A stretch of DNA of 20,053 nucleotides from a virus. The stretch lies in the IMG/VR virus record IMGVR_UViG_3300012920_000379, positions 1 to 20,053 of that record. The stretch is one strand, 5' to 3'. Position numbers and translations under genes: made by a program. This document shows, piece by piece, positions 7,025 to 16,431 of this stretch (position 1 is its first letter; each line of letters starts with the position of its first letter). The notes under the pieces were generated by a model. It had not been told where the DNA came from. It was given only the letters and a program-made list of their open reading frames with translations, and searched no databases.

Positions 7025-7354
7025 ATGGCAGTATATAATGCAGCAGAATTAGCAGAGGTCACAGCATTAGGAACTTCTGAAGCACAAGTATTCAGCAATT
7101 CTAATAAATGTATCATTAAGCAAATTATGTTAGCTAACTATACAGCGACTGACAGAACAGTCGAGATCAAAGTTATTCCTTCAGGGGACACAACAGGAGA
7201 TCAACACATCATTTTTGGTGATATAACTGTTCAAGCAAACACAACCACAACTATTGACTTAGCTATGGTTATACCTGCATCAGCATCAGTTGCTGCAAAA
7301 TGTTCAGCAGCTACATCTGTAAATATACATGTTTCTGGTGTAGAGGTGAGCTAA
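7025..7354 (+). CDS. Small putative virion protein, beta-rich
   Basis: A 109-residue protein preceded by a good AGGAGA ribosome-binding site ending about 6 bases before the ATG. It alternates short hydrophobic strands with Thr/Asp-rich turns, consistent with a small beta sandwich. Two cysteines (about residues 29 and 93) lie near the ends of the putative sheet. There is no signal peptide. It is coupled to the next gene by a one-base stop/start overlap. The location in a fibre/adhesin block suggests a virion or adhesin-associated part, but I do not recognise the family. Confidence 0.65.
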   Translation: MAVYNAAELAEVTALGTSEAQVFSNSNKCIIKQIMLANYTATDRTVEIKVIPSGDTTGDQHIIFGDITVQANTTTTIDLAMVIPASASVAAKCSAATSVNIHVSGVEVS

Positions 7355-8670
7355 TGCCTGAGATACAAGTACCTGAGCCAATTTTTTTGGACAGATTAGG
7401 TGGCGATGAAATATATGGGTTTGGTCAAGATGGGGATGTCACATTAGCATCTAATACAACTCTTGCTAGAGATATGTATTACAACGATCTAACAATTAAT
7501 AGTGGTGTCACTCTTGACACTAACGGCTATCGTGTATTTGTTCGTGGTACCTTAACATTCGCTGACTCAACTTCTAAAATTGGTAGATTTTCAAATAAAT
7601 CTAATGCAGGTACTTTAAAAGGTGGATTTGGTAAAGGTATAGACGCTACAGATACTCTAGGTGGTAGGTCATCTGAACAAACAGACAGCGAACACGCAGG
7701 CAACACATTTTTCGATGGAGAAAACGATTTTTTTAACTTATCTGTTGCTTTAGCAGGACAAAAATTTGATCAAGCTACAGAAACATTTAAATTTCTAGGT
7801 GGTGGATCTGGCGCATCTGATGGTGCAATAACAGCTACTCCACAAGAAGGTGATGATGGATCTGATACAAATTGGTCAGACTATCAAACAGTAGGTGCAG
7901 CAGGTGGTAAAGGTGCTACAGGTAATGCAGCTACAGCAGGCACAGGCGCAGTCGGAGGTGGAGTAGTTTTAGTTATAGCAAAAACAATATCTGGAGATGG
8001 AACAATTAGAGCTGACGCAGATGATTCTGTAGCTAGCGCTGATGGAACAGATGGCGCACCTGCCCCTGATGCTCAAACACCTGGCAACTCAGTACCAGGT
8101 AATACAAATCCAACTAACTATGGTGCTAACTATGGATCAAACTCAGGTGCAAACTATGGATCTAATGCAACTAATTACGGATCTAACAACACAAACTATG
8201 GATCAAATCCAACTAACTACGGATCACACACTCACTATCATTGGCATGGTGGTCCAACAATAAACAATTATCAATCAGGTTATTATCACTATCACTATGC
8301 TCATACGCATACTTATCCTGGAAATAATTATTCATATCCTGGAAATAATTATTCTTATCCAGGTAATAACTATTCGTATGGATATAGCTACGGATATTCT
8401 TATGGATATTCATATGGTGGAAATACAAACCCAACTAATACTAACCCTACAAACTATCACCCAGGTGGTGCAGGTGGATCTGGAGGAACTTCATCAGTAT
8501 CATATAACGCAGGTGGTGGTGCAGTAGTATTAGTCACAGGAACAAAACCACTACCTTCAGGTTTAACACTTGCTGCTGCGCAAGGTACAAGTGGATCTGG
8601 AACAGCAACAGCAGGTACTGTTGTGACAGTATTTAATATCGCAGCAACAGATACGGATCCAAGCAGTTAG
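7354..8670 (+). CDS. Adhesin-like virion protein with Asn/Tyr/Gly/His-rich insert
   Basis: 438 residues. I chose the ATG at 7354, which overlaps the preceding stop, over the in-frame ATG at 7300, which would lie inside the upstream gene and add an unlikely Cys-rich leader. The N-terminal part (residues 1-100) and the two short G-G-G-V/A-V-V-L-V strands are shared with the following gene. Between them, residues about 250-375 form a low-complexity insert: N-Y-G-S-N-type repeats, an alternating-His stretch (H292, H294, H296, H298; then H312, H314, H317, H319), three Y-P-G-N-N-Y-S repeats and four Y-G-Y-S units. Six X-Pro-Gly tripeptides occur in this region. It is probably a surface-exposed adhesin; alternating H-x-H clusters occur at the iron-binding tip of T4 gp37. 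Function is inferred from context and composition. Confidence 0.75.
   Translation: MPEIQVPEPIFLDRLGGDEIYGFGQDGDVTLASNTTLARDMYYNDLTINSGVTLDTNGYRVFVRGTLTFADSTSKIGRFSNKSNAGTLKGGFGKGIDATDTLGGRSSEQTDSEHAGNTFFDGENDFFNLSVALAGQKFDQATETFKFLGGGSGASDGAITATPQEGDDGSDTNWSDYQTVGAAGGKGATGNAATAGTGAVGGGVVLVIAKTISGDGTIRADADDSVASADGTDGAPAPDAQTPGNSVPGNTNPTNYGANYGSNSGANYGSNATNYGSNNTNYGSNPTNYGSHTHYHWHGGPTINNYQSGYYHYHYAHTHTYPGNNYSYPGNNYSYPGNNYSYGYSYGYSYGYSYGGNTNPTNTNPTNYHPGGAGGSGGTSSVSYNAGGGAVVLVTGTKPLPSGLTLAAAQGTSGSGTATAGTVVTVFNIAATDTDPSS
8101..8472 (+). repeat. Low-complexity NYGSN / YPGNNYS / GYSY repeat tract
   Basis: The tract encodes residues 250 to about 373 of the adhesin. It holds N-Y-G-containing units at 8104-8232, a His-alternating section at 8227-8250 and 8287-8310, three 21-base YPGNNYS units at 8314-8376, then Y-G-Y-S units to 8424 and two N-P-T-N units. 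The repeats also open long spurious reading frames on both strands here. The next gene, a paralogue, lacks the tract. Confidence 0.85.
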
Positions 8671-8678
8671 GAGATATT

Positions 8679-9338
8679 ATGGCAATAGTAGAAGTAGGAC
8701 AAGTACCATCAGATTTTGAAACATTTGATGTTGTTCCTGACAGTATCTATGGTTCAGGAATGGATGGTAATGTTTCTATAACTAGCAACACAGCTCTTAC
8801 AAGAGATATGCATTACAACAATTTAACTATAGATCCTGGAATCGCATTAGATACAGCAGGCTATAGAGTTTTTGTAAGAAATGTTTTAGCTCTTGCACCA
8901 ACCTCTACTAATCAAGCAGATACAACAATAGGAAGAATTGGTGGTGTTTCAACATCAGGAACTCTAAGAGGTGGCGCAAGTGCAGCAGTCACAAATTCAC
9001 TTGGTGGAAATGGTAATGGATATACGGCTACAGCACCTACATTAGGGGCAGAGTATTTTAATCATCCTGATATAGCCATTGAAGGAGTCATAGTACATGG
9101 TGGTCAAACAACTCCTGTTGCATTACAAGGTGGTGCAGGTGATAGTGTAAATCACGGAGGTGGAATTGTAGTGGTATGTGCTAGAAGATTGCAAGGTTAT
9201 GGAACTATTAAAGCGACAGGCGAAACCACAACCGGTGGTGGAGTAATATTTATCGTTTCTCAAGATATACCATTGACAGGTATATTGACAGATGTCACAG
9301 GATATGCATCAGGAACAGTAAAAACATTTAAGGTATAA
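8679..9338 (+). CDS. Paralogue of the preceding adhesin-like protein, without the insert
   Basis: 219 residues, preceded by AGGAGA about 5 bases before the ATG. The first 100 residues align with the gene upstream: I-Y-G-x-G-x-D-G-N-V, then T-R-D-M-H-Y-N-N-L-T-I, then L-D-T-A-G-Y-R-V-F-V-R. The core G-G-G-I-V-V-V-C-A-R and the following G-Y-G-T-I-K also match. It lacks the Asn/Tyr/Gly/His-rich section, so the two genes are a tandem duplication in which one copy gained (or the other lost) a large loop. The strand-turn pattern suggests a beta-helix-like virion protein. Confidence 0.7.
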   Translation: MAIVEVGQVPSDFETFDVVPDSIYGSGMDGNVSITSNTALTRDMHYNNLTIDPGIALDTAGYRVFVRNVLALAPTSTNQADTTIGRIGGVSTSGTLRGGASAAVTNSLGGNGNGYTATAPTLGAEYFNHPDIAIEGVIVHGGQTTPVALQGGAGDSVNHGGGIVVVCARRLQGYGTIKATGETTTGGGVIFIVSQDIPLTGILTDVTGYASGTVKTFKV

Positions 9339-9340
9339 CA

Positions 9341-10234
9341 ATGGCTACTGTTCGTGTATATTACAGTAGGGAAGATCAAGATTATGATAATTATAGTCTA
9401 TGGTATATGCCTGGCCGTCATCAAGGGAATGCTGACCTACTAGATCCAGATCACACTTTTACTGAAGAATATGGTGAGGCACCAAGAATTGTATCAGATT
9501 TTACCTCTGAAGGTAGTTTTGGATATGTAGATATAGATTTAAATGGTGCAGGTTTTTGTGATTTTTATATTAGAAGAAAAGATTTTTTAGTAGATCTAGA
9601 TGATAGTGCTACATACGAACCTGAATCATTATATTGGATGACAGGTTTTATATATTCTTTACAAGAAAACTTATATAGCGAAGTCTATGTAAAAGAAAAC
9701 AAACCATATATATATCAAGATAGTTTCTTTCAAGGAGTATATCCTATGGCTATAACCCTGGCAGGTGATGAAAGCACATCAACTAGTGATGATATATTAC
9801 ATGAAGTTGTAGAGCATGGTGAAGAGGGAGAAGGTTGGTGGTGGACACATTACAAAATATTCAATACACACGAAAATTCTACTACAATAGAAATACCACA
9901 AAGTGTTCTATATCAAATATTAGAACAAGAAGACATGGACACAATCATGACTACTCTGATGGTATACTTATGTGGTAAAACTTACACTATAGGAGAAGAT
10001 ATGCAATTATCAATAGACGCAGACGCTTTAGCAGTTGAAAAAGCCGATGCATTACAAGTAGTTGACAAAGCTATTGCTAACAGTCTTTATAAGTTAGGCG
10101 AAGTACCGGCAGACTTTGATGAAGATGCTTTCCTCGCTGATGTAGATGCTTACAAAGCTACTAAGAGCGAAGTTTTAGAAAGCACAATAGATTACTTAAA
10201 ATCTTGCTTAGACACAAGACCTAATCTAGTCTAG
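9341..10234 (+). CDS. Putative virion protein with CBM41/PUD-like N-terminal domain
   Basis: 297 residues. The N-terminus (about residues 4-83) starts V-R-V-Y-Y-S-R-E-D-Q-D-Y-D-N-Y-S-L-W and closes with G-A-G-F-C-D-F-Y-I-R-R-K-D. Bacterial pullulanase-associated (CBM41/PUD) domains have the same layout: V-H-Y-H-R-P-D-x-D-Y-x-x-W-G-L-W at the start and a G-F-I-x-H-x-G-D-x-K-D end. Those domains bind alpha-glucans. The middle region is rich in aromatic and acidic residues (W-W-W-T at about 166). The last 70 residues are helical and acidic. Only a weak ribosome-binding site precedes the ATG. A glycan-binding role in host recognition is inferred; the domain match is from pattern only. Confidence 0.55.
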   Translation: MATVRVYYSREDQDYDNYSLWYMPGRHQGNADLLDPDHTFTEEYGEAPRIVSDFTSEGSFGYVDIDLNGAGFCDFYIRRKDFLVDLDDSATYEPESLYWMTGFIYSLQENLYSEVYVKENKPYIYQDSFFQGVYPMAITLAGDESTSTSDDILHEVVEHGEEGEGWWWTHYKIFNTHENSTTIEIPQSVLYQILEQEDMDTIMTTLMVYLCGKTYTIGEDMQLSIDADALAVEKADALQVVDKAIANSLYKLGEVPADFDEDAFLADVDAYKATKSEVLESTIDYLKSCLDTRPNLV

Positions 10235-10253: not shown

Positions 10254-10727
10254 ATGAGGAAGGTATTTTTTGTACCTGAAGGTCAAGACATCAACGACTA
10301 CAAAGATCAATGGAATGGTCAAGTAAAAGAAGTTCACAATAGTGTATCTGTAAACAACAAAGATTATATTCTTACTGATAAAGAAGCTCATTTCTTTAAC
10401 ATCCCTGAATTTCAAGCAGTAAATACTATTGAGCATTGTTCAAGTTTAGATTATATAATTTATAGTCTTATAGATGATTATGCAGAATTTGAAGATGATC
10501 CTGCATATATTATGGAAATATGGGAAAAAGATTACGATAATCCTAACAAAGAAAAAATTAAAAAAGATACTCACATTTTAGGTTTTAACAAAAACAAAGG
10601 TATTTACGAAACAGACTATATAAGACTTGATGCAGGTTGGTACGAACTAGTATTTAAAAAAGACAATGAATTATTTGATACATCTGAAGTTTCAGTTTAT
10701 TACAAAGATGTTGAGGAAGAAGAGTAA
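10254..10727 (+). CDS. Uncharacterised acidic protein, first gene of the cassette
   Basis: 157 residues, not recognised. It is acidic, with aromatic-rich segments (I-M-E-I-W-E-K-D-Y around 90 and Y-E-L-V-F-K-K around 135) and an E-E-E-E end. The last third (Y-I-R-L-D-A-G-W-Y-E-L-V-F) looks like beta strands, so a small beta-sandwich or accessory domain is possible. No signal peptide, membrane segment or catalytic motif is visible. It starts from a strong ribosome-binding site and its stop overlaps the next start by one base, tying it to the oxygenase downstream. Confidence 0.65.
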   Translation: MRKVFFVPEGQDINDYKDQWNGQVKEVHNSVSVNNKDYILTDKEAHFFNIPEFQAVNTIEHCSSLDYIIYSLIDDYAEFEDDPAYIMEIWEKDYDNPNKEKIKKDTHILGFNKNKGIYETDYIRLDAGWYELVFKKDNELFDTSEVSVYYKDVEEEE

Positions 10728-11443
10728 TGGTCTTAAAGAAGTTATGGAAACAGGTAGAGTCTAAAGAAATAGTTCCTGGAGTCATAGCGTGGGAAAATTG
10801 TTTAGAGGTACCTGAAGGTATTGTAGATACTATGAACTCTGAAGTAGATCGTTGGAAACAACGAGCTATTGAAAATAACGAATTTCATAAAGGTGGGAAT
10901 TACGACACAATTCGTAATGCAAATGGTCCAATTAGATTTGATCCTGAAACAGAGTTTATTGAAAAAGAAAGTAAAGAATACTTTTGGCAAGTACAAAGAA
11001 ACACTCTAGATAAAGTAAATGCTTACTGTGATATTTATCCTGATGTTAAAGATGAAATACATTGGATGGAACAATATCAATATATAACTTATAAGCCACC
11101 TAAGTATATGAATTATCATGGCGACAATAGATCAACTAGAAATCCTCAAACAGGAAGATTTTGGAATGCACCATTTTTAAGAAGAATAACTTGTTTGACT
11201 TACTTAACAGACGATCACAAAGGTGGTGCTTTAGATTTTAGATATTTTGATATGGATTCTTACAAACCACCGGCAGGTAGTGTCGTTATTATGCCAAGCT
11301 CTTTTGTATTTTCACACGCAACAACACCTTTACTTGATGGTAGGAAAGCAGCTTTTTTGGTAGCATGTTCTAGTGGTTTTGATTTAGATTCATTTTTAGA
11401 TGGTGTTCCACCAGAAGAATTAGCTAGGAGGTATATAGTATGA
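10727..11443 (+). CDS. 2-oxoglutarate/Fe(II)-dependent oxygenase (prolyl-4-hydroxylase-like), first copy
   Basis: 238 residues. It probably hydroxylates a protein or small-molecule substrate using O2, 2-oxoglutarate and Fe(II). The double-stranded beta-helix signature is visible: H131-G-D133 as the H-x-D metal pair, H197 in F-S-H-A-T-T-P as the distal metal ligand, and R206 in D-G-R-K-A-A-F as the 2-oxoglutarate anchor. Between them lie L-T-Y-L-T-D-D-H-K-G-G-A-L-D-F and the G-S-V-V-I-M-P-S strand. The gene is coupled to its neighbours by 1- and 4-base overlaps. Similar genes are frequent in marine T4-like phages, where substrates are mostly unknown. It is diverged from the next gene, so the two may act on different substrates. 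Confidence 0.85.
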   Translation: MVLKKLWKQVESKEIVPGVIAWENCLEVPEGIVDTMNSEVDRWKQRAIENNEFHKGGNYDTIRNANGPIRFDPETEFIEKESKEYFWQVQRNTLDKVNAYCDIYPDVKDEIHWMEQYQYITYKPPKYMNYHGDNRSTRNPQTGRFWNAPFLRRITCLTYLTDDHKGGALDFRYFDMDSYKPPAGSVVIMPSSFVFSHATTPLLDGRKAAFLVACSSGFDLDSFLDGVPPEELARRYIV

Positions 11444-12129
11444 AAAAAATAATGGGATGTGTAGAAATCTATGATGATTTCTTAACAAAAGATCAAGCTG
11501 AAAAAATTATAAAGTCTATAGATCAAATGGATCAAGATAAAGACTTTGAATTAGGCTATGAAGATGCGTCTATAGGAAAAGGTCACAAAGGTGGCAATAT
11601 AAGAACAAATCAACTGTTTCCTATAACGCGTTATGCTGTAGAGCCTGGAGAGGCACGATTTATTAGAGAGGCTATAAAAGATGGTAAAGAACAATATATT
11701 CTAGATCTAAAAAATATTCAACAATTATTGTCCACTAAATTACAAACATATGTGAATGATTATTGTGAAAGATATGAAATGAGCATACATTTTGATGAAG
11801 GTTATACACTTTTAAAGTATGAAGGTGGTCAAGAATATAAAGCACATTGTGATTATGCACCTCATAATCCTCGTCACTTGTCTGCTTTGATATTGTTGAA
11901 TCCTACTGAGTATAAGGGTGGTGGTACATACTTTACTCATTTCGAAGAAATGGTAAAACCAGATCAACCTGCTTTAGTTTTGTTTCCTAGTAATTGGGCA
12001 TACGCACACAAAGCTATGCCTGTTATAGAAGGAACAAAGTATGCTATTGTCACTTGGCTAGGTCATCAAATAGACTTTGATGGATTGCCTCCTATGTACA
12101 TTCCAGAAGGTATAAAAATAAATATTTAA
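11440..12129 (+). CDS. 2-oxoglutarate/Fe(II)-dependent oxygenase (prolyl-4-hydroxylase-like), second copy
   Basis: 229 residues. The motif set is H136-C-D138 (H-x-D), H190 in A-Y-A-H-K-A-M-P-V, and K200 in E-G-T-K-Y-A-I-V-T-W as the likely 2-oxoglutarate anchor. The Y-K-G-G-G-T-Y-F strand and the L-V-L-F-P-S turn are typical of the prolyl-4-hydroxylase group. Use of Lys as the 2-oxoglutarate anchor, where the upstream copy has Arg, is also seen in prolyl 4-hydroxylases. The ATG overlaps the upstream stop by 4 bases. The protein is cytoplasmic, with no signal peptide. Prolyl hydroxylation is inferred from the subfamily; other side chains or small molecules are possible. Confidence 0.87.
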   Translation: MKKIMGCVEIYDDFLTKDQAEKIIKSIDQMDQDKDFELGYEDASIGKGHKGGNIRTNQLFPITRYAVEPGEARFIREAIKDGKEQYILDLKNIQQLLSTKLQTYVNDYCERYEMSIHFDEGYTLLKYEGGQEYKAHCDYAPHNPRHLSALILLNPTEYKGGGTYFTHFEEMVKPDQPALVLFPSNWAYAHKAMPVIEGTKYAIVTWLGHQIDFDGLPPMYIPEGIKINI

Positions 12130-12145
12130 GTAGTAGGATATTAAC

Positions 12146-12853
12146 ATGACACAATCACAAACATTCAGAAATGGAATAACTATAGATATAGATGAAACAG
12201 ACTTGAGTGAATACAAAAAGGTATCTGCTCTTGGTCATATGAATCCATCACTTGAATTTTATCTAGAAGATAATGCAAGTTCTTTTTCTAAAGCAGTAAT
12301 AGTAGGTGCAGGTTGTGGAGTAGCAACAGGAATACTTGAAGGTGCAGGTGTTGAAACTGTAAACATAGAACCTAATGCTGATCGTTATGCAATACTTGAT
12401 GATAACTACAATGCTGCTGAAAACTACAACAAAGCATGTTCTGATGAAAATGGAACAGGCACTATGTATTTCTTTGAAGACAATAAATCAGGTGGCATAC
12501 TAGATATGGTATTTGGAGATTCTTCGCAAGCTGTAGATGTTATAACTGTTGATAGCTTAGATTTATCTGATATAGATCTAATGATTGTTTATGCAAATGG
12601 TAAAGAGTATGATGTTCTCAAAGGTGCAGAAACTACATTATCTAACAATTCAGGAACAAAAGTTGTTATGGATTGGAAACCAGATCAGATCTCGAATATT
12701 AATACTGTGCTAACTTACTTAGAAGACAATTTTACTTCTATAAAAATTATTCATTGGGAAGATGATGATTCAATATCTTTTAGACTTATCGGTACTGACA
12801 ATACTGTAGAAAATTTAAGAGCTGTGATGACAGCTACTTTATTGTTAGAATGA
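12146..12853 (+). CDS. FkbM-family SAM-dependent methyltransferase
   Basis: 235 residues. The Rossmann start is V-I-V-G-A-G-C-G at 51-58, in place of the usual D-V-G-A-N-x-G. Then come E-P-N-A at 75-78 closing the second strand, V-D-S-L at 135-138, and the FkbM-like I-D-L-M-I-V-Y-A-N-G-K-E-Y-D-V-L-K-G-A-E ending at E162. FkbM enzymes usually O-methylate sugars or small molecules. It sits 16 bases after the second oxygenase and 7 before the next gene. The substitutions in the first motif and in the K-I-D-V-E-G block (here V-Y-A-N-G-K) are notable and could alter activity. A sugar or hydroxyl target made by the flanking glycosyltransferase and oxygenases would fit the family. Confidence 0.75.
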   Translation: MTQSQTFRNGITIDIDETDLSEYKKVSALGHMNPSLEFYLEDNASSFSKAVIVGAGCGVATGILEGAGVETVNIEPNADRYAILDDNYNAAENYNKACSDENGTGTMYFFEDNKSGGILDMVFGDSSQAVDVITVDSLDLSDIDLMIVYANGKEYDVLKGAETTLSNNSGTKVVMDWKPDQISNINTVLTYLEDNFTSIKIIHWEDDDSISFRLIGTDNTVENLRAVMTATLLLE

Positions 12854-12860
12854 TAGGGTA

Positions 12861-13679
12861 ATGATGGGGAAAAAGTACAAAAGATTTTTAGAAGTTAAAG
12901 AACATAAAGTAGAGTTTGATACTATAAAGTTTTTAACACAAAAGCCTGAGTATATTGATCTTGCACCACCTCGTCCATCTAAAGAATTTATACCTGCATG
13001 GTATAAAAATTTACAAAGAGAATGGACTGAGATGCGTGATGGTAAGCATGGTGAAGGTGAAGACGAGTCTTGGAATACTGTTCCTTATAAAGATAACTCC
13101 TTAAAAAAATGTCCTACTGTAAAAGATATTATGCATGAAGGTTATATCATACCTTTGTGGCTTGATTTAAAAATAAGTCATACTAAAGAAACAGGTTTTA
13201 ATTGGTACAACAAACATGCATTTGAAAATACTATAACCTTTCATGATCCAAGATCTATTGGAAAAATGCCTTTGATGGATCACAGCTTTAACACAGCTCT
13301 TAAGTTTGAAAACCCTTGGGATATAATCACACCTCCAGGTTGGTCAGTTATTATTATGGATCCTTGGTATCACAGAAATACTGATATAGAAATCATGCCA
13401 AGTATTGTTGAAACTGATAGCTATCATCAAATGAACATACCTTTTTTATATCACGGAACAGGAGAAAAAACATTTAGACAAGGAACACCTCTAATTCATG
13501 TTATACCTTTTAAAAGAGAAACATTATCAAATATAGAAGTTGCAGAGATGGATGAGTTAGATGAGAAGTATTATGATAAAAGTAGAGCTGCTGAAAGAAC
13601 TAGACAAAATGGTTTTTACAGATGGCTAACACAACAAAATAAAAAAATATGGAAAGAACAGGGGATAATAGATGAGTAA
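12861..13679 (+). CDS. DUF6065-like protein, first paralogue
   Basis: 272 residues of unknown function. Visible blocks are I-D-L-A-P-P-R-P at 32-39, I-P-A-W-Y at 44-48, K-K-C-P-T at 82-86, G-Y-I-I-P-L-W at 94-100, T-P-P-G-W-S at 157-162, I-V-E-T-D at 182-186, and Q-G-T-P ... H-V-I-P-F-K-R at 207-219. The P-P-G-W / V-E-T-D / G-x-P / P-F-x-R order matches the DUF6065 family as I remember it. The same blocks recur in the gene at 14490. The AGGG ribosome-binding site is better spaced for the second ATG (12864) than the first. It overlaps the next gene by 8 bases. The conserved His, Asp and Glu residues would suit a beta-barrel binding site, but no reaction can be named. Confidence 0.6.
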   Translation: MMGKKYKRFLEVKEHKVEFDTIKFLTQKPEYIDLAPPRPSKEFIPAWYKNLQREWTEMRDGKHGEGEDESWNTVPYKDNSLKKCPTVKDIMHEGYIIPLWLDLKISHTKETGFNWYNKHAFENTITFHDPRSIGKMPLMDHSFNTALKFENPWDIITPPGWSVIIMDPWYHRNTDIEIMPSIVETDSYHQMNIPFLYHGTGEKTFRQGTPLIHVIPFKRETLSNIEVAEMDELDEKYYDKSRAAERTRQNGFYRWLTQQNKKIWKEQGIIDE

Positions 13680-14493
13680 GTGTCCATTCAAAATACCTAA
13701 TGTTGGAGATCTTTGGAGTAAACCTTTAAAAGAAACACATAGGAATATGCCTAGAGTAGCATTTACAATACCAAAACCATTAGCAAATGTAGTTGGCAAA
13801 GAACATGAGGAAACTAGTTCTATACCAATAATTAATTATGGCGCACCTAGAAAATTTGTAAAAGCCCCCAATGGTTGTGTATCAACACAGTATCAAAGAA
13901 ATAGATTATATGAAATGTATTTTCCGTACAGTAATGTAAAAGTAAAACTTGTCAAAAATCAATTTTCTGACGAAATAGACAGATATGGTGGTTTCTCTAT
14001 GCAAGCTAGTTATCATGGTGCAGTTAAACATCATGGACCATTTGATGAAATTATATTAGAAGAAAAAGAGGCATGGGCTAATCCTGAACAACCAATATTG
14101 CAAATAACAATGCCTTTTATGTTTTTTACTGATGATCCTGAAGTATGGTTGGATATTGTCCCTACAGATAGAAATACAGGAAAGAATTTACCAATATCTC
14201 TGATAGGTGGTTTTATGCCTATCTATAATTGGACTAGAGGATTGTCTTGGGCATTTGAGTGGACTGATACTTCTCAAGATACACTTGAATTAAGTCACGA
14301 TACAGTAATGTTTAATATCTTGTTTTCAAAGCCTGTAAAAATAGAGTGGGTTGAATGGAACGAAACATTTAGCGAAAGATGGAATATGATTGTAGGATCA
14401 GCAGTAAACAGAAGAGATACTAATACATTATATCCTGATGCTTTGGCAAGAAGACCGAAAAAAATATTACCTAGAAAAAAATTCTTTAAATGA
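13672..14493 (+). CDS. Uncharacterised protein between two DUF6065-like paralogues
   Basis: 273 residues, not firmly recognised. The N-terminal 90 residues are basic and Pro-rich. The second half has I-T-M-P-F-M-F-F-T-D-D-P, then I-V-P-T-D, L-I-G-G-F-M-P-I-Y-N-W, S-W-A-F-E-W, and a late I-L-F-S-K-P-V. The order of strands and gaps resembles the core of the flanking genes (F-x-x-P-W..T-P-P-G-W, P-x-I-V-E-T-D, M-N, G-x-P, P-F), so it may be a third, distant member. It overlaps its neighbours by 8 and 4 bases. The Lys/Arg-rich C-terminus (P-R-K-K-F-F-K) could contact nucleic acid or a partner, but this is speculation. Confidence 0.6.
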   Translation: MSKCPFKIPNVGDLWSKPLKETHRNMPRVAFTIPKPLANVVGKEHEETSSIPIINYGAPRKFVKAPNGCVSTQYQRNRLYEMYFPYSNVKVKLVKNQFSDEIDRYGGFSMQASYHGAVKHHGPFDEIILEEKEAWANPEQPILQITMPFMFFTDDPEVWLDIVPTDRNTGKNLPISLIGGFMPIYNWTRGLSWAFEWTDTSQDTLELSHDTVMFNILFSKPVKIEWVEWNETFSERWNMIVGSAVNRRDTNTLYPDALARRPKKILPRKKFFK

Positions 14494-15230
14494 AATTTAT
14501 CAAGAAAAAAAATATGCGCTTTTCTACAATGGATGAGCCTTTAATAGATCTTGCGCCTCCTGTACCTGCTGCGCAAATGATACCTGAATGGTTTCAGCAA
14601 TTAAATCTAGATCTACCAATATTTGACGCAAAACCTTTTCCTAAGATGGGTGAGTTTCTTAAGGATTATAATTCACATACAGTAAAAAAATGTCCTGCTA
14701 TTGTTGATTACTTTACGCAAGGATATATTGTACCTCTATGGTATGACATACTTGTCCAAAGAAAAGGTGAAGATTTTCATTTTGAAACAAATTCTATAAA
14801 TAATAACAGCAGTCATATAGAGTTTCATCAATACGAACAGTTGCCCACATATCCATTTAAAGAAACTGACATGAGGAAAGCAGTTAAGTTTACAAGTCCA
14901 TGGTTTTTTTGGACACCTCCAGGTTGGAGTACATTGTTTTTACCACCACTTCTACACAAAAATGATAATTTTACTTTACTTCCAGGAATTGTAGAAACAG
15001 ATAGTTTTCATCAAGTCAATTTTCCAAGTATATGGCATTCGGAAGGTGATGTAATATTAAAAAGAGGGGAACCATTTTTGCATGTAATCCCTTTTAAAAG
15101 AGAAAAAGTTGGTTTAGAAGTAGAGTTGTTTGATGACAAAGATCATGATGCAATAAATAACGAGGCATTTAGATTAAGATCTAAATTTACAGGTGGGTAT
15201 AGGGACATTACTAGACGAAATAAAAAATGA
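14490..15230 (+). CDS. DUF6065-like protein, second paralogue
   Basis: 246 residues, clearly paralogous to the gene at 12861. Shared blocks are I-D-L-A-P-P at 19-24, I-P-E-W-F at 31-35, K-K-C-P-A at 66-70, G-Y-I-V-P-L-W-Y-D at 78-86, T-P-P-G-W-S at 142-147, G-I-V-E-T-D-S at 166-172, and R-G-E-P-F-L-H-V-I-P-F-K-R-E at 192-205. An alternative start is the ATG at 14514, which would remove a Lys-rich leader; the ATG at 14490 is favoured by its 4-base ATGA overlap with the upstream stop. The next gene starts with a similar ATGA overlap. No function is known; conservation of the H-V-I-P-F-K-R block suggests both copies are functional. Confidence 0.62.
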   Translation: MKFIKKKNMRFSTMDEPLIDLAPPVPAAQMIPEWFQQLNLDLPIFDAKPFPKMGEFLKDYNSHTVKKCPAIVDYFTQGYIVPLWYDILVQRKGEDFHFETNSINNNSSHIEFHQYEQLPTYPFKETDMRKAVKFTSPWFFWTPPGWSTLFLPPLLHKNDNFTLLPGIVETDSFHQVNFPSIWHSEGDVILKRGEPFLHVIPFKREKVGLEVELFDDKDHDAINNEAFRLRSKFTGGYRDITRRNKK

Positions 15231-16171
15231 GTATATTTGTTTCTTTCCCAACAATGCACGATCCTGAAGTTTTAAATACAATAAATGGTATATATTCTTT
15301 GTCTAAAAACCCACAAGATATTTATGTATCTATATTTAATTTATATACACATGATTCTGAATATGAAAGATTAAAACATTTTCAAAATCACAAAAATGTT
15401 ATTGTCCAAAATCAATTATTTGACATGGATAATATTTGGGAGTTTGCAGGTCCATCTAAAAGCCGTATAAAAGCATTTAGTAAATACAACGGAGAAGATT
15501 ATATTTTACAAATAGATTCTCACACAAAATTTACGCCTAATTGGGATGATAGACTTGTTGAATTATTTAATGAGTCTGAAGACATAACAGATAAACCAAT
15601 TATTACTTCTTTTTTAGGTTTTTATGATGATGGTTTAGATATATTTACATCAGGTTCTATGAAATATCCATTCTATTATGATTGTGATTGTGAAAAATGT
15701 TTGCAAGCTGATGATCACCATCCACTACCTTTAGTAGATATAAAACAATCTTTACTAGAGTCTGATCAAACTTTACTTAATAAATTTTATCCTTCACCAA
15801 GATATTGTACGCAATTTGGATTTTCAAAATATAATTTTATAGAAGATCAAATACCAGATCCTATTGATAGCTTTGAGGATATATATCAATCAATAGAACT
15901 ACATAACAAAGGTTATTCTTTTGTATATCCAAATATTAACAAAGATTTTATGGCACATTCTTGGCAAAGTACAAAGAGAGCTAAGTGGAGTGATGTTTTT
16001 GGGGAAGATAACTTAGAATTACAAAAACAAAAAGGCATTGATTATTGGTATAATTACTTAGCGAATAATCATGATAAGGTACAAAAATATTGTGATTATG
16101 CAAATCTATATATAGATAACAATACCTTAAAAATAGATAAAGAATACACAATACCAAAAGGCTACAAATGA
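15227..16171 (+). CDS. PF11397-type glycosyltransferase (Skp1 GlcNAc-transferase-like)
   Basis: 314 residues, GT-A-like. The key block is G-P-S-K-S-R at 75-80 followed by Y-I-L-Q-I-D-S-H at 92-99 (D97 and H99 as the metal/nucleotide motif) and W106-D107. Around 217-235, F-E-D-I-Y-Q-S-I-E-L ... G-Y-S-F-V-Y-P resembles the family's G-E-E ... G-Y-D-x-Y-x-P acceptor-side region. PF11397 includes the Dictyostelium Skp1 enzyme that adds GlcNAc to hydroxyproline, and bacterial members of unknown acceptor. A cluster C153, C155, C158 with D162/D163 and H164/H165 may bind metal. It lies in the same coupled run as two prolyl-hydroxylase-like oxygenases. The donor sugar and acceptor cannot be read from sequence. 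Confidence 0.78.
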   Translation: MSIFVSFPTMHDPEVLNTINGIYSLSKNPQDIYVSIFNLYTHDSEYERLKHFQNHKNVIVQNQLFDMDNIWEFAGPSKSRIKAFSKYNGEDYILQIDSHTKFTPNWDDRLVELFNESEDITDKPIITSFLGFYDDGLDIFTSGSMKYPFYYDCDCEKCLQADDHHPLPLVDIKQSLLESDQTLLNKFYPSPRYCTQFGFSKYNFIEDQIPDPIDSFEDIYQSIELHNKGYSFVYPNINKDFMAHSWQSTKRAKWSDVFGEDNLELQKQKGIDYWYNYLANNHDKVQKYCDYANLYIDNNTLKIDKEYTIPKGYK

Positions 16172-16431
16172 AAGTATGGATAGATCAAGACCTATGTACA
16201 GGTGACGGACTTTGTGCAGAAATAGCACCTGATGTTTTTGTTATGCAAAATGATGGACTTGCCTATGTTCAAGAAACAGTAGGTAATTTTGGAGATCTAA
16301 AAATATTTAGTGCTATACACAGTAATGATCAAGGCGCTGAGGGTTTAGCAAGAGTTCCTGTAGGCCAGGAAGACATAGTGACTGAGGCAGCTGAAGAATG
16401 CCCAGGAGAGTGTATTTTTATAGTACCATAA
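16168..16431 (+). CDS. Single-cluster ferredoxin ([3Fe-4S]/[4Fe-4S] type)
   Basis: 87 residues. The start V-W-I-D-Q-D-L-C-T-G-D-G-L-C-A-E-I-A-P-D-V-F is typical of small ferredoxins. Cluster residues are C10, D13, C16 and the distal C78 followed by Pro. Asp at the position of the second Cys is found in [3Fe-4S] ferredoxins and in the Asp-ligated [4Fe-4S] type such as Pyrococcus furiosus ferredoxin. C82 is an extra cysteine. An insertion at about 40-68 lengthens the protein over the usual 60-65 residues. The ATG overlaps the glycosyltransferase stop by 4 bases. It probably gives electrons to a redox enzyme; 2OG oxygenases do not normally need one, so the partner is unclear. Confidence 0.82.
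   Translation: MKVWIDQDLCTGDGLCAEIAPDVFVMQNDGLAYVQETVGNFGDLKIFSAIHSNDQGAEGLARVPVGQEDIVTEAAEECPGECIFIVP

Follow-up and report, generated by a model that had tools for sequence, protein, structure and literature searches.

A gene cassette exchanged together with a phage adhesin and possibly devoted to modifying its tip

What do the products of a tightly packed viral gene cassette act on, when two of them resemble prolyl hydroxylases and others a methyltransferase, a glycosyltransferase and a ferredoxin? The question is raised by positions 10254-16431 of IMG/VR record IMGVR_UViG_3300012920_000379, a 20-kb viral record whose 20,053 nucleotides were analysed as a whole (hereafter, the window). A first reading of the letters without database searches (the sequence-only reading) had proposed that nine coupled genes form one pathway modifying a protein or a glycan. 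We found that, in uncultured marine phages, the enzyme set is swapped together with the type of the neighbouring adhesin, which establishes a genetic linkage between the two. The set is a conserved, adhesin-linked exchange module under purifying selection, and its oxygenases have intact catalytic residues. Because adhesin type and cassette swap together, the adjacent adhesin is the likely target. We assign a probability of about 0.5 to the reading that this is an adhesin-maturation cassette, whose enzymes would modify the uncharged Asn/Tyr/Gly/Pro/His-rich tip of that adhesin.

The window opens with a 2032-amino-acid (aa) tail-fibre-like protein and small genes, followed by two adhesin-like genes and a gene at 9341-10234. 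After the nine cassette genes, labelled A to I, come two small genes, an exonuclease (17097), an endolysin-like gene and a nuclease. The adhesin and cassette genes are as follows.

7300..8670, + strand: adhesin, the likely substrate, with an N-terminal domain common to haloarchaeal virus adhesins
8679..9338, + strand: second, short adhesin-like protein with the N-terminal domain of 7300-8670, found at 35 loci in viral contigs
10254..10727, + strand: A, 157-aa protein at the cassette head, the fastest-evolving core member
10727..11443, + strand: B, 2-oxoglutarate (2OG)-Fe(II) oxygenase (PF13640), with H131, D133, H197 and R206 invariant in the alignment
11440..12129, + strand: C, prolyl-4-hydroxylase-like 2OG-Fe(II) oxygenase (PF13640), with H136, D138, H190 and K200 invariant in the alignment
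12146..12853, + strand: D, FkbM-type methyltransferase (PF05050, marginal; phrog_8156 methyltransferase, 4e-16)
12861..13679, + strand: E, DUF6065 protein (PF19541) with a predicted dUTPase/dCTP-deaminase-like fold (model, Foldseek)
13672..14493, + strand: F, no Pfam family, predicted to share the fold class of E (model of lower score)
14490..15230, + strand: G, second DUF6065 protein (PF19541), 35% identical to E
15227..16171, + strand: H, PF11397 glycosyltransferase, accessory, in line with the cassette only in the window and one relative, L026
16168..16431, + strand: I, single-cluster ferredoxin, with invariant CxxDxxC...CP ligands (alignment A5)

The linkage is seen in a natural swap between two genomes, G005 and G012. 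Most of their terminase-to-tail proteins are 95-100% identical (a few 78-90%), and the downstream exonuclease, amidase and lysis proteins are 97-100% identical, whereas the stretch from the tail fibre to just before a 70-aa open reading frame (ORF) is unrelated, the tail fibre itself being 48% identical in its N-terminal part only. The replaced block of G005 consists of window-type adhesins and A-B-C-Y-D-E-F-X-G-I, where X and Y are additional genes treated below; that of G012 consists of several glycine-rich adhesins (24-37% Gly), a small protein and a DUF6065-like gene with an adjoining F-like gene, with no ferredoxin. The window-type adhesin was accompanied by all eight core genes at 35/35 loci reaching the ferredoxin, and none of A-D or I was present, over the stretch visible, at the five loci that share the downstream flank and carry other adhesins or tail genes (G012, L368, L370, L375 and L376), these 35 and five loci not being independent events. 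A function specific to the adhesin would lead one to expect this correspondence of enzyme set with adhesin type.

The adhesin at 7300-8670 probably starts near 7351. Its residues 258-415 (158 residues) include no D, E, K or R and are 89% N, Y, G, S, P, H and T, with repeated NYG, YSYG and YPGN and five HxH motifs, which, as in T4 gp37, may bind metal. All 19 relatives with a readable adhesin copy have such an uncharged segment, its repeats shuffled from one to another. Both adhesin-like proteins have an N-terminal domain that matches halovirus adhesins (hhalign E 2e-5; E 1.8e-5 for the short one).

In the mechanism that we propose, the phage would make this receptor-binding adhesin with its long uncharged N/Y/G/S/P/H-rich segment, and the cassette enzymes would act on the segment, or on its fibre, during assembly. 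Hydroxylation would fall to the two 2OG-Fe(II) oxygenases (relatives have as many as four), methylation to the FkbM-type enzyme and, where it is present, the addition of sugar at hydroxylated positions to the accessory glycosyltransferase. Holding, capping or presenting the adhesin may be the task of the dUTPase-fold proteins (two DUF6065 proteins and F), which are the component retained with simpler adhesins, and A may have a role as well. The ferredoxin might give electrons, for example to keep oxygenase iron ferrous, which is the weakest step. Receptor binding would thereby be altered or stabilized.

The enzyme families support part of this scheme. Profile searches bore out the two prolyl-hydroxylase-like enzymes (PF13640 twice, 30.4 and 51.5 bits; cut-off 27), the FkbM methyltransferase by a small margin (PF05050, 23.2 bits; cut-off 22.7), the PF11397 glycosyltransferase family (68.6 bits; cut-off 21) and the redox carrier, which is a single-cluster ferredoxin by PF13459/PF13370 (66.6 bits) and by its closest solved structures. 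The iron triad HxD...H and the 2OG-binding R/K are kept in every aligned member of B and C (alignments A3 and A4). The closest solved structure to B is the PKHD hydroxylase 3dkq, and the best solved relatives of C are bacterial prolyl 4-hydroxylases (3itq, E 3.1e-9; 5hv0, E 3.2e-9). By similarity to the characterised bacterial enzymes, C thus resembles a prolyl 4-hydroxylase, and this is its predicted activity. With these matches and the retained iron and 2OG ligands, the proposal of a protein- or glycan-modifying pathway fits the data and is partly supported.

The strongest rival places the substrate on the host: the cassette would alter the lipopolysaccharide or capsule glycan of the cell surface, and the infected cell would cease to bind this type of adhesin, which would prevent superinfection or the loss of progeny. 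In that case the enzyme set, having to destroy the matching receptor, would track the adhesin too, and co-exchange with the adhesin is equally expected. FkbM and PF11397/GT2-like enzymes are typical glycan enzymes, and S-SSM7 has carbamoyltransferases and heptose enzymes near adhesin-like genes. However, C is closest to protein prolyl hydroxylases, the parallel cyanophage clusters described below add JmjC_2, a protein-hydroxylase family, and the core has no nucleotide-sugar gene and no O-antigen polymerase or flippase gene. Moreover, the glycosyltransferase, which alone is clearly of glycan type, is accessory. We regard modification of the host receptor as unlikely.

The adhesin-maturation reading requires a unit, and a unit is found, with a membership different from that first proposed. 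A search with DUF6065-a returned 52 loci in viral contigs, 38 of which span A to I, and the order A-B-C-(Y)-D-E-F-(X)-G-I on one strand is present in 38/38 of the spanning contigs. Variation among them is restricted to Y after C, X after F, an extra DUF6065 gene and the glycosyltransferase. The ratio of non-synonymous to synonymous substitution rates (dN/dS) is about 0.07-0.2 for the core and 0.2-0.4 for gene A. Because the core order is kept in every spanning contig and dN/dS is low, the nine-gene block is not a chance assembly. The nine genes as such were rejected as the unit: the glycosyltransferase falls outside the conserved set, lying downstream on the opposite strand in at least 10 relatives other than L026, and X and Y, usual in relatives and absent from the window, belong to it there. 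X and Y are mutually related (hhalign E 1.5e-13), match phrog_2954 and, by eye, have a histidine/acid-histidine pattern resembling 2OG enzymes. F is recognizable by sequence only in this phage group, apart from the F-like gene in G012. At the nucleotide level, the ORF list confirmed nine ORFs at 10254-16431, all on the + strand, with overlaps of 1, 4, 8, 4, 4 and 4 bases and gaps of 16 and 7 bases. The claim of a single strong ribosome-binding site at the head failed: GGGAGG precedes 10254, but an equally strong AGGAGGT precedes 11440. Single relatives have extra genes downstream of the ferredoxin (L008:12995-13879 and L024:11804-12412; PAPS-reductase-like and methyltransferase).

Alternatively, the cassette could be a metabolic hitch-hiker, its oxygenases and ferredoxin tuning the 2OG level or redox state of the host and its position reflecting a late, exchangeable locus. 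Many marine phage 2OG oxygenases have been so interpreted (PMC3037559), and many viruses that lack the cassette have the ferredoxin. Of the genes proposed to belong together, the ferredoxin and the glycosyltransferase do occur independently; the core order itself is constant. Against it stand the fixed order and content in 38 contigs, the strict match to one adhesin type and the absence of the cassette from a near-identical backbone with other adhesins, and we judge this explanation quite improbable.

We then consider the DUF6065 proteins. The sequence-only reading had counted three related proteins; E and G hold (PF19541, 28.0 and 27.3 bits; cut-off 26.6), and F (13672) has no Pfam match. F has no detectable similarity to DUF6065 profiles (hhalign probability 0.2-0.6) and is grouped with them by predicted fold only. 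The AlphaFold model of E (predicted local distance difference test, pLDDT, 82) matched dUTPase and dCTP deaminase folds in the PDB with Foldseek probability near 1, at a best E of only 2.7e-3 and a TM-score by target of ~0.5, and it matched uncharacterised phage proteins at E 1e-14. The model of F (pLDDT 66) matches several of these same phage proteins. On inspection, E has a motif-3-like (I/V)VETD, and the serine-containing motif 2 was not seen. That DUF6065 and F are nucleotide enzymes of the dUTPase/dCTP-deaminase type, with the cassette making modified nucleotides or DNA, is highly improbable: the predicted fold, a visible motif-3-like GI(L/V)(D/E)x(D/K) and the proximity of DUF6065 to ribonucleotide reductase or thymidylate synthase in S-RIM4 and haloviruses favour it, but Foldseek against the PDB never fell below E 1e-3, no dUTPase SGLA-type motif was seen by eye, the oxygenases match prolyl-hydroxylase families with no Tet/JBP match in Pfam, the locus lies between tail and lysis genes, and there are several paralogues per genome.

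The genomic contexts of DUF6065 would fit a partnership with adhesins. Unrelated loci found by DUF6065 alone lie mostly within ~0.5-6.5 kb of a glycine-rich ORF (L112, L114-L118, L176, L245, L249, haloviruses and cyanophages), compared with 0/21 ferredoxin-only loci; the exceptions are S-RIM4, Sf-CH8, L113, L246 and L247. L176, on an independent backbone, combines an adhesin, two DUF6065 genes and a ferredoxin, and L404:637-5191 contains a tandem unit of glycine-rich adhesin, 137-157-aa protein and DUF6065. A DUF6065 paralogue is also present within the tail-tip genes of related phages (G001, G013 and G029; L056:11615-12379, L358:10744-11514 and L359:6939-7739). A search for bacterial operons with DUF6065 gave only seven genome matches, several of them phage-like fragments. 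DUF6065 is not listed among halovirus and cyanophage virion proteins in the portions of the published proteomes consulted, and no paper mentioning it was found in the open-licence literature, which is weak evidence given that scope.

How far does the arrangement extend beyond this phage group? The identical set in unrelated backbones was rejected, and a search for the co-occurrence that the sequence-only reading had envisaged returned sub-sets only: adhesin and DUF6065 recur in unrelated phages, together with 2OG oxygenases in cyanophages. In Syn9, Syn10, S-CREM1, S-RIM44 and P-TIM40, glycine-rich adhesins are followed by a small protein, one or two tryptophan halogenases, DUF6065 and then a series of genes, mostly 2OG/JmjC_2 oxygenases where scanned or annotated; S-WAM1 and P-RSM6 have a similar cluster, in which DUF6065 was not identified. 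These T4-like cyanophage clusters resemble the window in that DUF6065 and several 2OG-Fe(II) oxygenases are tightly packed behind the adhesins, and differ in that halogenases and JmjC_2 replace FkbM, glycosyltransferase and ferredoxin on an unrelated backbone. The window adhesin has no sequence homology to the cyanophage adhesins, its homology being to halovirus adhesins only, and none was detected between A and the small protein that follows the adhesins in other phages. Annotation of the cyanophage clusters has usually taken each gene singly, as an auxiliary metabolic gene: their 2OG oxygenases have been read as acting in DNA repair, on the 2OG level or in unspecified protein modification, and the halogenase as belonging to an antibiotic pathway (PMC3037559; PMC9964418). 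A structural survey found prolyl-hydroxylase-like proteins to be widespread in marine phages and gave no substrate (PMC12774648). The statement that no such phage system had been described is thus nearly right, since parts of similar clusters have been annotated singly and we found no description of them as an adhesin system. A general link between phage halogenases and adhesins was rejected, as 6/10 sampled halogenase regions had no glycine-rich ORF.

Three other systems invite comparison. The adhesin locus of HF1-group haloarchaeal viruses, whose glycine-rich-motif tail proteins are linked to host range (PMC7230728), has a related N-terminal domain, a glycine-rich adhesin and DUF6065 within 1.5 kb of it; unlike in the window, no oxygenase or methyltransferase is present in the stretches read, and DUF6065 stands beside nucleotide-metabolism genes. 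A protein pathway known from Dictyostelium uses a prolyl hydroxylase and then an N-acetylglucosamine (GlcNAc) transferase that acts on the hydroxyproline (PMC3515798). This Skp1 pathway (PhyA and Gnt1) resembles the window in pairing a prolyl-4-hydroxylase-type oxygenase with a 'GlcNAc'-type glycosyltransferase (PF11397), but is eukaryotic and cytosolic with Skp1 as its target, whereas the glycosyltransferase of the window is accessory and its target only proposed. Gnt1 is the founding member of PF11397. In the T4 superfamily, according to literature cited in PMC7230728, host range is set by gp38, a separate adhesin whose segments vary; gp38 adhesins are receptor-binding tips with glycine-rich motifs. 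The window adhesin is likewise separate and, unlike gp38, is N/Y/P/H-rich with HxH motifs. We know of no dedicated modification enzymes for gp38 adhesins.

These parallels suggest a broader, tentative generalization, against which we would place the odds slightly: each adhesin type may travel with its own tailoring set, which here comprises hydroxylases and a methyltransferase and in cyanophages halogenases and JmjC hydroxylases. Such sets would hydroxylate, methylate, glycosylate or halogenate the receptor-binding tip, and the dUTPase-fold DUF6065 proteins would be dedicated partners of the adhesin. If so, host recognition by marine phages would be diversified by tip chemistry as well as by adhesin sequence. 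Marine phages have many 2OG-Fe(II) oxygenases and some tryptophan halogenases, usually read as metabolic, and natural substrates for them were not found in the literature; if a subset edits the phage's own receptor-binding tip, a concrete and testable substrate lies next door, and DUF6065 gains a genetic context.

Several observations weigh against adhesin maturation. A shared recombination site or exchange hot-spot alone could link adhesin and cassette, and the absence of the cassette from L368, L370, L375 and L376 rests on the ~2-3 kb visible upstream of the flank. Glycans or small molecules are frequent substrates of FkbM and PF11397 enzymes. Enrichment of Pro-Gly as a hydroxylase signature was rejected: the six Pro-Gly in the window adhesin (5-15 in relatives) are not significant, 457/5000 shuffles reaching that count. 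DUF6065 occurs away from adhesins in S-RIM4, beside ribonucleotide reductase, and in Sf-CH8, and in haloviruses it is on the strand opposite to the adhesin. Finally, ferredoxin is common in viral contigs without the cassette (L157-L177), and the majority of other phage halogenases have no glycine-rich adhesin nearby.

Some further results concern the surroundings. A promoter scan was uninformative, giving fewer sites than in shuffled sequence. The search for a cultured relative gave no DNA match and, among its best matches, a capsid at most 36% identical; phage records held no protein match to the short adhesin or the ferredoxin. In G023 (21603-21842) and L158, which have the same ferredoxin and no cassette, its gene directly follows a tape-measure-like gene. 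Pelagibacter phage HTVC008M (L257:81-4844) has, near an ORF with 33% glycine, five opposite-strand genes annotated as being of 2OG, phytanoyl or ferrochelatase type. In S-SSM7 (L258), Cys-rich adhesin-like proteins precede what may be another enzyme set, made up of carbamoyltransferases, 2OG oxygenases, a halogenase and heptose enzymes. Two further features flank the cassette in the window.

9341..10234, + strand: unnamed gene between adhesins and cassette, its position conserved in relatives at 33-79% identity
16438..16581, + strand: 47-aa ORF after the ferredoxin, an ORF of ~40-52 aa being present at that place in most relatives

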